Source: Oscillospiraceae bacterium
Lineage (GTDB): Bacteria > Bacillota > Clostridia > Oscillospirales > CAG-382
Length of the DNA stretch: 34,336 nucleotides
Direction of reading: 5' to 3'
NCBI GenBank assembly: GCA_022508745.1
Contig: JAFLUP010000021.1
Coordinates: forward strand, 1 to 34,336
The notes below the pieces were generated by a model. It was given only the letters and a program-made list of their open reading frames with translations. It had not been told where the DNA came from and did not search any database. Position numbers and translations under genes: made by a program. Shown in pieces: positions 1,082-10,726 of the stretch; the stretch's first letter is position 1, and every line of letters starts with the position of its first letter.

Positions 1082-1130
1082 TTGACAACCGTGTTTACAT
1101 GGTGTAAACTGTATTTACAAGTTGTAAACA
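1082..1130 (+). promoter_or_regulatory. Promoter with two tandem BlaI/MecI-type operators
   Basis: TTGACA 1082-1087, 17 bp, TAAACT 1105-1110; dyads GTTTACAtggTGTAAAC (1093-1109) and TTTACAAgTTGTAAA (1114-1128), TACA/TGTA type. Confidence 0.85.
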
Positions 1131-1147
1131 CGAAAAGAGGGATCGAC

Positions 1148-1519
1148 ATGAAAGAGATGCGTATGGGGGAGATCGAAACCCGCTTTGCGCAGATCATCTG
1201 GCAGAACGAGCCGATCACCACCGGCGAGCTGATCCGGTTGAGCGAACAGGAGCTGGGGTGGAACCGCAGCACCACTTATACCGTGCTGAAACGGCTTTGC
1301 GAGAAGGGAATCTTCCAAAACCAAAACAGCTCCATCACGTCCTTGCTTTCGGAAAGCGAGTTTTACGCCCTGCAAAGCGAGAAGTTCGTCCGGGAGACCT
1401 TCGGCGGATCGCTGCCGTCCTTTCTGGCGGCGTTTTCCAAACGCAAGCAGTTGTCGGAGGAGGAGATCGACGCCATCCGTGGGCTGATCGAGGACTTTGA
1501 GAAAGGGGAAAAGTCATGA
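1148..1519 (+). CDS. BlaI/MecI/CopY-family transcriptional repressor
   Basis: MKEMRMGEIETRFAQIIWQNEPITTGELIRLSEQELGWNRSTTYTVLKRLCEKGIF: BlaI-type winged helix. SD AAAGAGGGATCGAC before ATG 1148 (ORF track start 1043 lies upstream of the promoter). Confidence 0.9.
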   Translation: MKEMRMGEIETRFAQIIWQNEPITTGELIRLSEQELGWNRSTTYTVLKRLCEKGIFQNQNSSITSLLSESEFYALQSEKFVRETFGGSLPSFLAAFSKRKQLSEEEIDAIRGLIEDFEKGEKS

Positions 1520-2925
1520 CGGCGGACGCGTTCTTTCTGCTCCTGCTGCACCGCAGCCTTGCGGCGAGCTGGCTGATCCTTGCGCTTCTGTTGTTTCGTC
1601 CGTTCCTTCGCAGGGTGTCCCGCTCCCTTTGCTGTGCCATGTGGGGGTTGGTGGCGTTTCGGCTGCTTTGCCCGTTCTCTTTTGAGAGCGCGTTCAGCCT
1701 GCTCCCCGGATCGGGAGCGCTTGCCGAGGCGGAAACTGCGACAGCGTTCCCGGGGCAGGAGCTGGTGAAGGTCGCCGCGGCGATCTGGCTGGCGGGCGTC
1801 CTGCTGCTCGGGCTGTATACGGTCGGCTCCTATTGGCACCTTCGGTATCTGGTGCAGGAAGCCGTGAAAAAGGAGGACGGCGTCTGGCTGTGTGACCGGA
1901 TCGACACGCCGTTTATCCTGGGCGTGTTCCGCCCGCGTATCCTGCTGCCGTTTTCCATGGATGCGGAGGATATTCCGTATGTGCTGGCGCATGAACGGGC
2001 GCATCTGGCGCGGCGTGACCATTGGCGCAAGCCCATCGCCTTCGCGCTGCTCACTGTTTTCTGGTTCCAGCCGGTGCTGTGGATCGCCTATGTGCTGCTG
2101 GGCAGGGATATTGAGTTCGCCTGCGACGAGCGCACCGTCCGCGCGTTGGGCGGGGACGACGAAAGCAAGGCGCGATACGCCAAAGCGCTGCTTCGGGGAA
2201 GCGTTCCCCGCGTGATCGCCGCGAAGCTGTACTGCCCGTTGGCGTTCGGCGGCTTGCAGACCAGACAGCGGGTGCAGTCCGTGTTGAACTATCGTAAGCC
2301 CGCCATGGCGCTGCTGCTTGCCGCCGCCGTGGTCTGTATCTCCGTCGCCGTCTGCTTTTTGACCGACCCGAAGGGAGGCGAAGTGCCGGAAGTCGTGTTA
2401 CCGGAACCGGATTCCGTTCTGGAAGCGTCGGACGAGCCGGCGGGAGAACCGCCTGCCGAATCGCCGAAGCCGAATCCTGTGCAAGTGACAGTGCAGCCCG
2501 GAAAGGAAGTTTTGCAGTCCGAGATTCGGCAGTCAATCGAAAGCAGTGATCTTTCCAACAGGAAAAAGGAGCAATTTTATACTTGCCTTTCCCATATGCG
2601 GATCGAGTTCTTTGACGAAAAAAAGCCGTATATGGCGGTAATCGAAAATACGGGCGATGCTGACGGGTCGATCACGTTTTGGGTACGATATATGACATAT
2701 GATCAAGATGTGCTTGCGCTACCCGTTAGTTCAGAGACAGACTTTTTCGTTGATGTGAAAATCGTAACAATTTTGCTTCCGGCGGGTGAAACGGTGTTCT
2801 ATACATTTGATCCCGGATATGAATACACTGCAAGACATGTAGTGGTCGCGGGAGTATCCTATGCGGAGCTTTCTGTGACTGATTACGGACTTACGGACGA
2901 AACGCAGAAGTTATACAAGGGATGA
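1516..2925 (+). CDS. M56-family (BlaR1/MecR1-like) membrane metallopeptidase antirepressor with a non-penicillin-binding C-terminal domain
   Basis: ATGA overlap with blaI-like gene; several TM segments; zinc motif HERAH plus FACDE; TM, Pro/Glu-rich linker, then C-terminal domain with VIENTGDADGSIT and LPAGETVFYTFDPGY. Confidence 0.88.
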   Translation: MTADAFFLLLLHRSLAASWLILALLLFRPFLRRVSRSLCCAMWGLVAFRLLCPFSFESAFSLLPGSGALAEAETATAFPGQELVKVAAAIWLAGVLLLGLYTVGSYWHLRYLVQEAVKKEDGVWLCDRIDTPFILGVFRPRILLPFSMDAEDIPYVLAHERAHLARRDHWRKPIAFALLTVFWFQPVLWIAYVLLGRDIEFACDERTVRALGGDDESKARYAKALLRGSVPRVIAAKLYCPLAFGGLQTRQRVQSVLNYRKPAMALLLAAAVVCISVAVCFLTDPKGGEVPEVVLPEPDSVLEASDEPAGEPPAESPKPNPVQVTVQPGKEVLQSEIRQSIESSDLSNRKKEQFYTCLSHMRIEFFDEKKPYMAVIENTGDADGSITFWVRYMTYDQDVLALPVSSETDFFVDVKIVTILLPAGETVFYTFDPGYEYTARHVVVAGVSYAELSVTDYGLTDETQKLYKG

Positions 2926-3062
2926 TTGATCAATGAAACGGAATCAGGCACAAGTCGAGCCGGTAACGGTACGGAAAAAGGGGTCTTTATGCCGCAGGGG
3001 GATACTCTAACTTAATTTGAGCTTGTGTTTTCGATTCGAGCAAAACGAAAGGAGGAAACCAT

Positions 3063-3725
3063 ATGAAAAGAACATTTGGCATTGTTCTTGCGTTCATCTT
3101 GGCGCTGACAATGAGCGCGGTCGTACTGGCGGAAGGATTGTCCGTCGAGAAAACGGAAGCTGTTACAGAAACCACGGAAATCGTTGCCGAAACCACGGAA
3201 ATCGTCGCCGAAACCACGGATACGGAGGCAAGCGAAGAAGTGGTCGAGGAAGAGAGCGTCACAGAAGCAGAGGAGGAATCTCTTACCGAAGCAAGTACCG
3301 ATCCTGCACTCTCGGAGGAGTATAGGTTGTTCCTTTACTGCCTGGATCACTTCCATTCAACGATGTGGCCGGGTCAGGAAGACGACCGCTGTACGCTTGT
3401 GATTGAAAACCGGGGAGAAGCAGACGGAACAATCACGGTATTTGCAAATTATGGATATGACAGTTGGTACGAGACAGGCGAACTGGAAGATCGAGAGTTT
3501 GCAAGTTACGGAGCGGAAATTGTTACAATTTCCCTTCCGGCGGGAGAAAAAACGTCCTATACTTTTGATCCGGGGTACTGGTACAACAGTATGGGATATG
3601 CGATTATCGGTGCGTCATATGAAGACATTTCCTATATGAAAGCCATAGAAGGCCCGGTAGTCAACAATCTAACGCTGGAAGAATATTTGGCACAATGCAC
3701 ACACCATGAGCTTGTTATCAAATAG
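3063..3725 (+). CDS. Secreted protein with acidic repeat linker and the same C-terminal domain as the upstream M56 protein
   Basis: SD AAAGGAGG; signal peptide MKRTFGIVLAFILALTMSAVVLAEG; T/E-rich repeats; VIENRGEADGTIT, EIVTISLPAGEKTSYTFDPGY. Confidence 0.85.
   Translation: MKRTFGIVLAFILALTMSAVVLAEGLSVEKTEAVTETTEIVAETTEIVAETTDTEASEEVVEEESVTEAEEESLTEASTDPALSEEYRLFLYCLDHFHSTMWPGQEDDRCTLVIENRGEADGTITVFANYGYDSWYETGELEDREFASYGAEIVTISLPAGEKTSYTFDPGYWYNSMGYAIIGASYEDISYMKAIEGPVVNNLTLEEYLAQCTHHELVIK
3168..3224 (+). repeat. In-frame 21-bp tandem repeat (about 2.7 copies)
   Basis: gaaaccacggaaatcgttgcc / gaaaccacggaaatcgtcgcc / gaaaccacggatacg, encoding ETTEIVA repeats. Confidence 0.8.
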
Positions 3726-3790
3726 AACGTTTCAATCGCTCATGCGATAGTCGTTATTCCCGCTTTCTGCGGCGAACGGGGGGAAAGACA

Positions 3791-3828
3791 AATGAGGAAG
3801 TCACTTTGGGGTGCTTCCTCATTTTTTT
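3791..3828 (+). terminator. Rho-independent terminator of the secreted-protein operon
   Basis: AATGAGGAAG (3791-3800) / CTTCCTCATT (3814-3823) followed by a T run. Confidence 0.8.
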
Positions 3829-8292: not shown

Positions 8293-9873
8293 TTATTTCG
8301 GTGAACTTGCAGATCTGTGCCGCCGGAAAAACCCGTAAGGGAGCAGGCAGAACAGATAAACGGCGGACAGGATCGGGAACAGACTCCCCGTGCAGCCGTA
8401 CAGGGTGGCGCGGCCGCCGAGGGAGAGGTCGCCGTACAGGACGTCCTGCTCCAGCGGTTCCGTCTGCCGCAGGATGCGCCCCTTGCCGTCCAGCAGCGCA
8501 GAGATCCCGGTGTTGGCGGCGCGCAGGACGGGTTTTCCGCTTTCTGCGGCGCGCAGCTTGGCGTAGCGAAGATGCTGCTTGACGCCGGCGCTGTCCCGGA
8601 ACCAAGCGTCGTTGGTGGCGATGACGGAAAAGGAGGTGCACGCTCCCGCCCGTTCCCCGCTGCCGAACACGGAATCGAAGCAGATATAACAGCCCACGCC
8701 ATAGGGTCCGACCTGCAGGACCGCATCCGTAGGGGAGACAGTCAGCTCCTCCCCGAGGTTCAGCTCGGCAAGGGGCGGAAACAGGGTGGCAAACAACCCT
8801 TTCAAAGGCAGCACTTCCCCGAAGGGGACCGGGTGCCGCTTGTCGTAAAAGGCGGAAAGCTCCCCGTCCGGCGAAATCGCCACGAGGCTGTTGTGCAGGC
8901 TCTCTCCGTCCTCTCCCCGCCGAAGGACCCCCAGCAGGATGGTGCAGTCGTATTCAGACGCGATGGAGGCGAAGGTCTCGTGCAGCACACCGCCCTCCGT
9001 GAAGTCCACAGCGACCGCGCTTTCCGGCAGCAGGATCAGCTTTGCGCCCCGCTGCGCCGCTTGCTCGGTCAGGTCCCGGTAGGCTTCAAAATCCTTGATC
9101 AGATAGTCGTCCTCCCACTTTTCGTCGGTGGAGATATTCGCTTGGATCGCCGCGACGGAGAGGGTTTCCGTCTCTTTCAACGGGAGGAAAAGCAGCACGC
9201 TCCCCGCGAGCAGGGCAACCGCGAACAGACCGCTGCCGGTGGCGAGCAGGGAACGCCGTCCGCAGCGGAGCGCCTCCGCGATCAGGGAGCAAACCGCCAC
9301 CGTCAGAAAGGCGATCCAGTCCGCTCCGAATAGGGAAACCGTTTGCAGCAGCGGCAGACAGCCGGTTTGCGACAGTGCCACCGTTCCCCAGGGGAGCGCT
9401 AACGAACCGAAGGCAAGCAGCTTTTCCGAAAGCACCCACAGGGACGCCAGCCCGAACGCCCGGAGAAAGGGGGATACGCCCGCCTCCCCTTTGGGGAAAA
9501 AGCGGGAAACCTGCAAAACGGCAGCTTGCACCGACCCCTGCAGGGCAGGGATCCCGAGACAGCAGAGCAGGACGATCCCAAAGGCGGTCGCGTTGGAAAA
9601 GCCGAAGGAGGAAAGGGGATACAGTGCCGTAAACCAGAGGTAAAGGGGGAACAGAAACCCCAACAGGAAGCAAAAAAAGCTGCGGAAGGTCTTGCCGCGA
9701 AGGGGTTCATGGGAGAGCAGCAACAAAAAAGCGGTCAGGGAGGCATAGGTCAGCGGGAACAGCCCTTCCACGAAAAACGGCAGGGAAAAAACCGCGCCTG
9801 AAAGCACGCATAACAGCAGGCTTCCGCGCGCGGTCCCGTATATCTTTTGCAGGTTATCCTTTAGCGTTGACAC
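8293..9873 (-). CDS. lnt: Apolipoprotein N-acyltransferase-like protein
   Basis: N-terminal TM helices and nitrilase-type domain; triad positions visible as LLPESAVAVD (E), YDKRHPVPFGE (K), YICFDSVF (C). GTG start at 9873 overlaps the upstream stop; ATG at 9921 is an alternative. Confidence 0.88.
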   Translation of the reverse strand: MSTLKDNLQKIYGTARGSLLLCVLSGAVFSLPFFVEGLFPLTYASLTAFLLLLSHEPLRGKTFRSFFCFLLGFLFPLYLWFTALYPLSSFGFSNATAFGIVLLCCLGIPALQGSVQAAVLQVSRFFPKGEAGVSPFLRAFGLASLWVLSEKLLAFGSLALPWGTVALSQTGCLPLLQTVSLFGADWIAFLTVAVCSLIAEALRCGRRSLLATGSGLFAVALLAGSVLLFLPLKETETLSVAAIQANISTDEKWEDDYLIKDFEAYRDLTEQAAQRGAKLILLPESAVAVDFTEGGVLHETFASIASEYDCTILLGVLRRGEDGESLHNSLVAISPDGELSAFYDKRHPVPFGEVLPLKGLFATLFPPLAELNLGEELTVSPTDAVLQVGPYGVGCYICFDSVFGSGERAGACTSFSVIATNDAWFRDSAGVKQHLRYAKLRAAESGKPVLRAANTGISALLDGKGRILRQTEPLEQDVLYGDLSLGGRATLYGCTGSLFPILSAVYLFCLLPYGFFRRHRSASSPK

Positions 9874-10726
9874 GGCAAACCATCTCCCGGGTGGCTTCGT
9901 AAGCGGTTTGGAACGCTTCAAAGGGGGAGGAAAACGCGTATTTATGGCGGATATCGTCCAGTTTGGAGAGGGAGGACAGCCCGGTAAACATCATCAGATG
10001 CGGCTCCATGGTGAGGATGACCTCCTCACCCGCCCGGTCGGCGGCGACAGCGGCAAGCGTCTCCTCCAGCAGGGCGACGCCCTTGCCCGGCGGCACGATG
10101 GTGCCGTCCTCGTCCGCGTCCTTGATATGGAAATACCGGATATAGTCCTTCAGAAGCGGGTACGCCGGCTTCGGGTCCAGCCCGCAGAAGGCGAAGTTGC
10201 CCGGATCCAGCACCGCTTGCAGCCGTCCGCCGAAATGCCGCATCAACTTTGCTTCGCTTTCCGGCGACGCGCCGTAGATGTCCTTTTCGTTTTCGTGGCA
10301 GAGTATGAAGCCGCGCTTTTCGGACAGCTCCAGAAGCTCCTCCGTCAGCGCAAAGACGCGCTGCTCGAAGGCCTCCGGGGAAAGCGCGCCGGGGTAAAAG
10401 CTGAACATACGGATCCACTTACATTCCAACCGTTCGCCCAGCTCCATCACCCGGAGAAACAGCTTGCGGTGGGCGTCCCAATCGCCGTCGGCGTCGATTT
10501 TTCCGATGGGGGAGCCCAGCGCGGAAAGTCCGATACGGGCGTTTGACAGTTTCTTGCGAACCGTCTCCGCTTCTTCGTCCGTCAGCAGGGTAAAGCTCTT
10601 CCCGTCCACGCCCCGCAGTTCCAGCAGCGGGATGCCCAGCTTTTGCAGCGCTTCCAACTGCCCGTCAAATTCCGGCGTGATCTCGTCCGCAAATGCGGAG
10701 AACCGAAAAGTTGCTTTTTGCTCCAT
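9854..10726 (-). CDS. Sugar phosphate isomerase/epimerase-like TIM-barrel protein
   Basis: MEQKATFRFSAFADEITPEFDGQLEALQKLGIPLLELRGVDGKSFTLL...HENEKDIYG...LDPGNFAFCG...YFHIKDAD; AP endonuclease 2-type TIM barrel motifs. SD GGAGGG. Confidence 0.82.
   Translation of the reverse strand: MEQKATFRFSAFADEITPEFDGQLEALQKLGIPLLELRGVDGKSFTLLTDEEAETVRKKLSNARIGLSALGSPIGKIDADGDWDAHRKLFLRVMELGERLECKWIRMFSFYPGALSPEAFEQRVFALTEELLELSEKRGFILCHENEKDIYGASPESEAKLMRHFGGRLQAVLDPGNFAFCGLDPKPAYPLLKDYIRYFHIKDADEDGTIVPPGKGVALLEETLAAVAADRAGEEVILTMEPHLMMFTGLSSLSKLDDIRHKYAFSSPFEAFQTAYEATREMVCRVNAKG

Follow-up and report, generated by a model that had tools for sequence, protein, structure and literature searches.

The window, by which we mean the whole 34,336-nucleotide stretch of DNA analyzed here, carries three consecutive forward-strand genes that resemble a BlaI-M56 signaling operon ending in an exported protein. 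The first (1148-1519) encodes a 123-residue repressor whose winged-helix domain matches Pfam Penicillinase_R over residues 7-115 (E 3e-22; 79.5 bits against a cut-off of 22.6) and which thus belongs to the BlaI/MecI family. Its stop codon overlaps by 4 nt the start of the second gene (1516-2925), the product of which is a 469-residue BlaR1-type membrane metalloprotease of the M56 family (Peptidase_M56, residues 10-253, E 4e-38; 131.7 bits against a cut-off of 31), with membrane segments, the zinc motif HERAH at residues 159-163 (1990-2004) and the motif EFACDE beginning at residue 200. The third gene (3063-3725), separated from the second by 137 bp, encodes a 220-residue protein in which a signal peptide without lipobox can be read at about residues 1-24 (3063-3134), followed by an acidic linker of TTEIVAE-type repeats; the mature protein is strongly acidic, with 44 Asp and Glu residues against 8 Lys and Arg. 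A preliminary description of this DNA had claimed a BlaI/M56 pair with an HExxH motif and a secreted neighbor with a signal peptide and acidic repeats, and all of these are present in the open reading frames as claimed. Elsewhere in the window, on the reverse strand (8296-9921), lies a gene for an apolipoprotein N-acyltransferase-like protein (LNT_N and CN_hydrolase domains), a type of enzyme best known from diderm bacteria.

Upstream of blaI, a consensus scan finds a forward-strand sigma-70-type promoter at 1082-1110 (TTGACA-17-TAAACT, 10 of 12 positions), which is supportive only, given that 1.9 such sites are expected by shuffling. Two BlaI-type operators were read directly from the sequence, the dyad GTTTACATGGTGTAAAC at 1093-1109 and TTTACAAGTTGTAAA at 1114-1128. 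They hold exact TTTACA-N3-TGTAAA dyads (1094-1108 and 1114-1128), the sole exact copies in the 2.16-Mb genome, which overlap the promoter or come shortly after it and have the TACA/TGTA form of BlaI/MecI operators. An intrinsic terminator on the forward strand (3790-3824; fold of -19.4 kcal/mol, z -4.2, then T7), placed by the scan at 3807-3821, follows the secreted gene and would end the putative three-gene transcript. Because the unique dyads lie over the promoter, the terminator follows the third gene and the sites listed by the scan include no promoter or terminator in the gap between the M56 and secreted genes, the simplest reading is that 1148-3725 would be transcribed as a single autoregulated unit.

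The C-terminus of the M56 protein had been described as something other than a penicillin-binding domain, and the profile searches agree. Neither Pfam nor NCBIfam returns a penicillin-binding or class D-like domain with an acylated serine, of the kind that defines a BlaR1/MecR1 receptor, and the NCBIfam model blaR1_generic reaches 64.8 bits against a cut-off of 400, covering residues 118-280 only, which correspond to the protease core and the last membrane segment. No beta-lactamase or penicillin-binding protein gene was found beside the BlaI-M56 pair, where the third gene encodes the secreted protein, and Pfam leaves both that protein and the M56 C-terminus without a match above cut-off. The suggestion that these two regions are paralogous holds: residues 346-469 of the M56 protein (the sensor copy, 2551-2922) align with residues 83-220 of the secreted protein (the secreted copy, 3309-3722) at 38% identity over 102 aa (BLASTP, E 5e-17), and motifs common to both include VIEN.G.ADG.IT and IVTI.LPAGE...YTFDPGY. 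We refer to this as the mirrored domain. AlphaFold2 predicts a helix followed by about seven beta strands for the sensor copy (pLDDT 78, pTM 0.71), and the same order of elements with inserted helices for the secreted domain of a sister operon on contig C63, described below (pLDDT 84.5). Foldseek searches of the PDB with both models returned generic matches only, none at E <= 0.001, so that the fold points to no ligand.

The mirrored domain is narrowly distributed. Used as single-sequence queries, the two window domains match only each other within their own genome, and neither 23 congeners nor the family's 62 other genomes yield a match. When profiles were run against 63 genomes of the family and 394 of the order, the domain was recovered only in the source genome, apart from three marginal order-level matches (E 0.004-0.006). 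The M56 protein as a single query against the genome contigs found no relatives. Conservation of the BlaI-M56-secreted triplet had been proposed as a check on the locus; the exact triplet is not found in congeners, whereas its architecture recurs with unrelated domains. This recurrence, which is not visible from the window, is a larger finding than the window locus itself.

Two sister operons repeat the layout. In the same genome, contig C63 (G000:C63; L001/L071) carries a BlaI, an M56 and a secreted protein, with a domain pair 68% identical over 137 aa, and a locus of a congener (L090) has a pair that is 79-83% identical (83% over 138 aa). Between the window, C63 and L090, the BlaI proteins are 71-79% identical, the M56 cores 54-67% and the first 60 residues of the secreted proteins 42-55%; the mirrored domains are 21-32% identical between these loci versus 35-79% within them. 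A tree that places the sensors in one clade and the secreted copies in another was rejected (delta lnL 175, AU p 3e-63). Since identity within loci exceeds that between loci, the BlaI proteins and M56 cores are conserved and the sensor-clade tree is rejected, these sequences indicate that the domain pair changes as a unit and that the rest of the operon stays recognizable. Synonymous divergence within pairs is 0.30 (dS) at L090 and 0.71 at C63, against 0.85-1.19 for M56 cores between loci, which makes both pairs younger than the divergence of the cores, and at L090 a recent duplication or conversion would best explain the pair. The synonymous sites of the window pair are saturated (pS 0.76, 99 codons).

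The two operons of the source genome also differ in their operators. The C63 variant is GTCTAC-N5-GTAGAC, where the window dyads read GTTTAC, and as neither form occurs exactly anywhere in the genome but at its own locus, they suggest that the two operons may be insulated from each other. Fragments of a third M56 system lie at the end of contig C68 (L100, 9485-10011) and at the start of contig C96 (L099, 2-2086) and look like a single gene split between the contigs. The C96 sensor is likewise mirrored by its neighbor, at 58% identity over 201 aa; if C68 and C96 do hold one gene, all three BlaI-M56 systems of this genome would be mirrored. By eye, the genes upstream of the C68 fragment look like capsule/exopolysaccharide-type genes accompanied by a LytR-CpsA-Psr-like protein, and for this reason the third system may be linked to the envelope.

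To place these operons in context, M56 loci were surveyed in the genus (57 loci), the order (80, plus the window) and the phylum (35). Each M56 C-terminus was compared with its own flanks, taken as 3.5 kb per side with the M56 gene masked and translated in six frames, at E <= 1e-3. A flanking gene shares the M56 protein's own C-terminal domain in 20 of 175 M56 ORFs, with a partner absent at BLAST sensitivity for the other 155; when flanks were swapped by permutation, the mean was 0.45 matches, and none of 2000 trials reached 20. All 20 partners are on the same strand as the M56 gene and 19 are downstream of it, their N-termini, judged by eye, are signal peptides or lipoprotein-like, and the 20 cases cluster into 13 groups (12 if the window locus is joined with C63 and L090). 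As the flank-swap control alone overstates the case, we added a control for local paralogy using 300 other long genes of the same loci. With any position allowed, the difference is not significant (20/175, or 11.4%, of M56 ORFs against 22/300, or 7.3%, of other genes; p 0.13). A downstream paralogue on the same strand accompanies 19 of 175 M56 ORFs against 7 of 300 other genes (p 2e-4), though the p-values of the survey are optimistic, since loci of one genus are not independent and 12 of the 20 mirrored loci come from the source genus, six of these representing one LRR family. Among 111 M56 C-termini from the order and phylum (alignment A4), few match Pfam, the most frequent matches being DUF4825 (7), Big_14 (4) and Peptidase_M23 (3), and no match to a penicillin-binding transpeptidase family was found at E <= 1e-5.

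In several mirrored pairs the shared domain is recognizable, namely as a GH10 xylanase, an ABC solute-binding protein (SBP), a phosphodiester glycosidase (NAGPA) or a BspA-type LRR protein. At L155 (G137:C1, 5048-9155), an M56 protein that ends in a fused GH10 xylanase domain adjoins a secreted GH10 xylanase, and DVVNE and SELDI are kept in both sensor and partner; on this sequence evidence the M56-GH10 protein is a candidate xylan sensor. It was absent from the five congeners of its host that were searched and is a singleton among the six genomes of that genus, and the L155 pair is therefore not a conserved locus. At L132 (G131:C39, 730-6164), an M56-SBP protein adjoins an SBP lipoprotein (69% identity over 413 aa), after which come two genes whose sequences read as ABC permeases, making the M56-SBP protein a possible nutrient sensor of the protease type. 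At L228, an M56-NAGPA protein adjoins a NAGPA protein with 62% identity. BspA-type LRR lipoproteins are the partners at six loci, with Pfam run on one of them (L062). The mirrored partner at L109 (7867-10238) is followed by another lipoprotein gene that looks much like it, and may thus have undergone duplication itself.

We consider it probable that the window holds an autoregulated BlaI-M56 signaling operon in which the sensor domain copies the protein that the operon itself exports and both copies recognize a common ligand. At rest, BlaI would occupy both dyads and keep the whole operon off, blaI included. An extracellular ligand would bind the predicted beta-sandwich domain at the M56 C-terminus, upon which, by analogy with BlaR1, the protease would be activated and BlaI inactivated, allowing the blaI-M56-secreted protein transcript to be made. 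The secreted protein, whose own copy of the domain sits on an acidic tether, could then bind the same ligand and sequester or otherwise handle it, thereby ending the signal. Since BlaI, the dyads and the M56 motifs are conserved, the inner half of this scheme (BlaI, dyads and M56) likely works as in BlaR1. As for the outer half, recognizable exported partners bind or process a substrate, and the sensor would thus most likely read its partner's substrate while the exported copy deals with it. As speculation, the acidic secreted protein of the window could trap something cationic. The preliminary description had suggested a ligand other than a beta-lactam, common to sensor and secreted protein; the missing penicillin-binding domain and the sister loci are consistent with this, and a shared ligand is the best and most economical reading because comparable loci pair GH10 with GH10, SBP with SBP and NAGPA with NAGPA. 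Weighing against the overall scheme are the 137-bp gap ahead of the secreted gene, the 155 M56 ORFs that lack such a partner and the comparable frequency of local paralogues among other genes when position is ignored.

Other relationships between the two copies can be envisaged. The secreted protein could itself be the signal or a direct regulator, with the copies binding each other in a self-sensing or feedback loop and their matching reflecting receptor-ligand co-evolution. Homotypic binding would be expected to produce pairs that agree inside each locus and differ from one locus to the next, as seen here, and the distinct operators of the two operons in the source genome fit such insulation, yet the GH10, solute-binding and NAGPA sister cases point to glycans or small ligands, and we regard this explanation as unlikely. 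Less likely still is a pure decoy, in which the secreted copy only competes for the ligand and damps the sensor without any other job. That the copy is exported, has the same domain and apparently belongs to the same operon would suit a decoy, but the GH10 and ABC partners are plainly an enzyme and part of a transporter, which makes them effectors.

It is about equally improbable that the domain was simply duplicated in tandem and persists without a functional link or common ligand. Local paralogy is common enough among other genes of these loci (7.3%) to keep this explanation in view, but it would not lead one to expect that 19 of the 20 partners lie downstream of the M56 gene and on its strand, that the partners are exported, and that they comprise about 12 unrelated kinds of domain, nor the mirroring of all three BlaI-M56 systems of the source genome, if C68 and C96 are one gene. 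The reading in which the sensor copies its exported partner and shares its ligand thus remains our preferred one. Its extension is more tentative, and we hold it at slightly below even chances: BlaI-M56 would be a general sensor platform, onto which an exported ligand-handling protein is copied as the M56 sensor domain, and repeated conversion or co-replacement would keep the copies alike.

Beta-lactam resistance is the main context in which M56/BlaI systems are known, yet no named domain is matched by most of the M56 C-termini in our sample. If the rule that the sensor mirrors the operon's exported product is true, it would yield testable ligand predictions for such orphan M56 receptors, the ligand being readable from the partner, for example xylan for M56-GH10 and the transported solute for M56-SBP. 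It would also make BlaR1 and beta-lactamase an example of a general route by which sensors evolve, and mirrored M56 operons would offer swappable extracellular sensors. Literature searches turned up no account of mirrored M56 operons for signals other than beta-lactams, which is weak evidence of novelty as subscription journals were thinly covered.

The closest comparison is with the BlaR1/MecR1-BlaI/MecI systems that control BlaZ or PBP2a. They have in common with the window locus a BlaI-type repressor, paired TACA/TGTA dyads, an M56 protease with HExxH and an extracellular C-terminal sensor, and an exported regulated product. The window M56 protein differs in having no penicillin-binding domain and in a sensor domain that matches the next gene, and its operon, unlike bla and mec, has as product a predicted beta-sandwich protein of no named family. 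In BlaR1, ligand binding outside the cell activates the protease, which cleaves BlaI directly, and class D serine beta-lactamases are relatives of the sensor (PMC9834060); this sensor, too, therefore resembles an enzyme that handles beta-lactams, and the pairing of BlaR1 and beta-lactamase seems to be a special case of mirrored sensor/product operons. A sensor resembling the enzyme under its control is also found in Clostridium thermocellum, where the GH10 domain of the anti-sigma-I sensor RsgI6 shares 57% identity with the xylanase Xyn10D, a member of the sigma-I6 regulon, and binds xylan but has very low catalytic activity (PMC4711584). RsgI, described as released by RseP (PMC12203970), is an anti-sigma factor and not an M56 protease with BlaI, and the genes it controls are found at other places in the genome. 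PetP/PetR of Synechocystis likewise pairs a BlaR1-like protease with a BlaI-like regulator for a signal other than a beta-lactam, namely copper (PMC7896320), although that paper describes no mirrored pair of sensor and product. At the window locus and at C63, the M56 protein's own C-terminal domain is repeated in an adjacent exported protein, the feature that defines the class proposed here, and what is new relative to these known systems is the recurrence of this arrangement with unrelated domains together with the matching of the pair within each locus.
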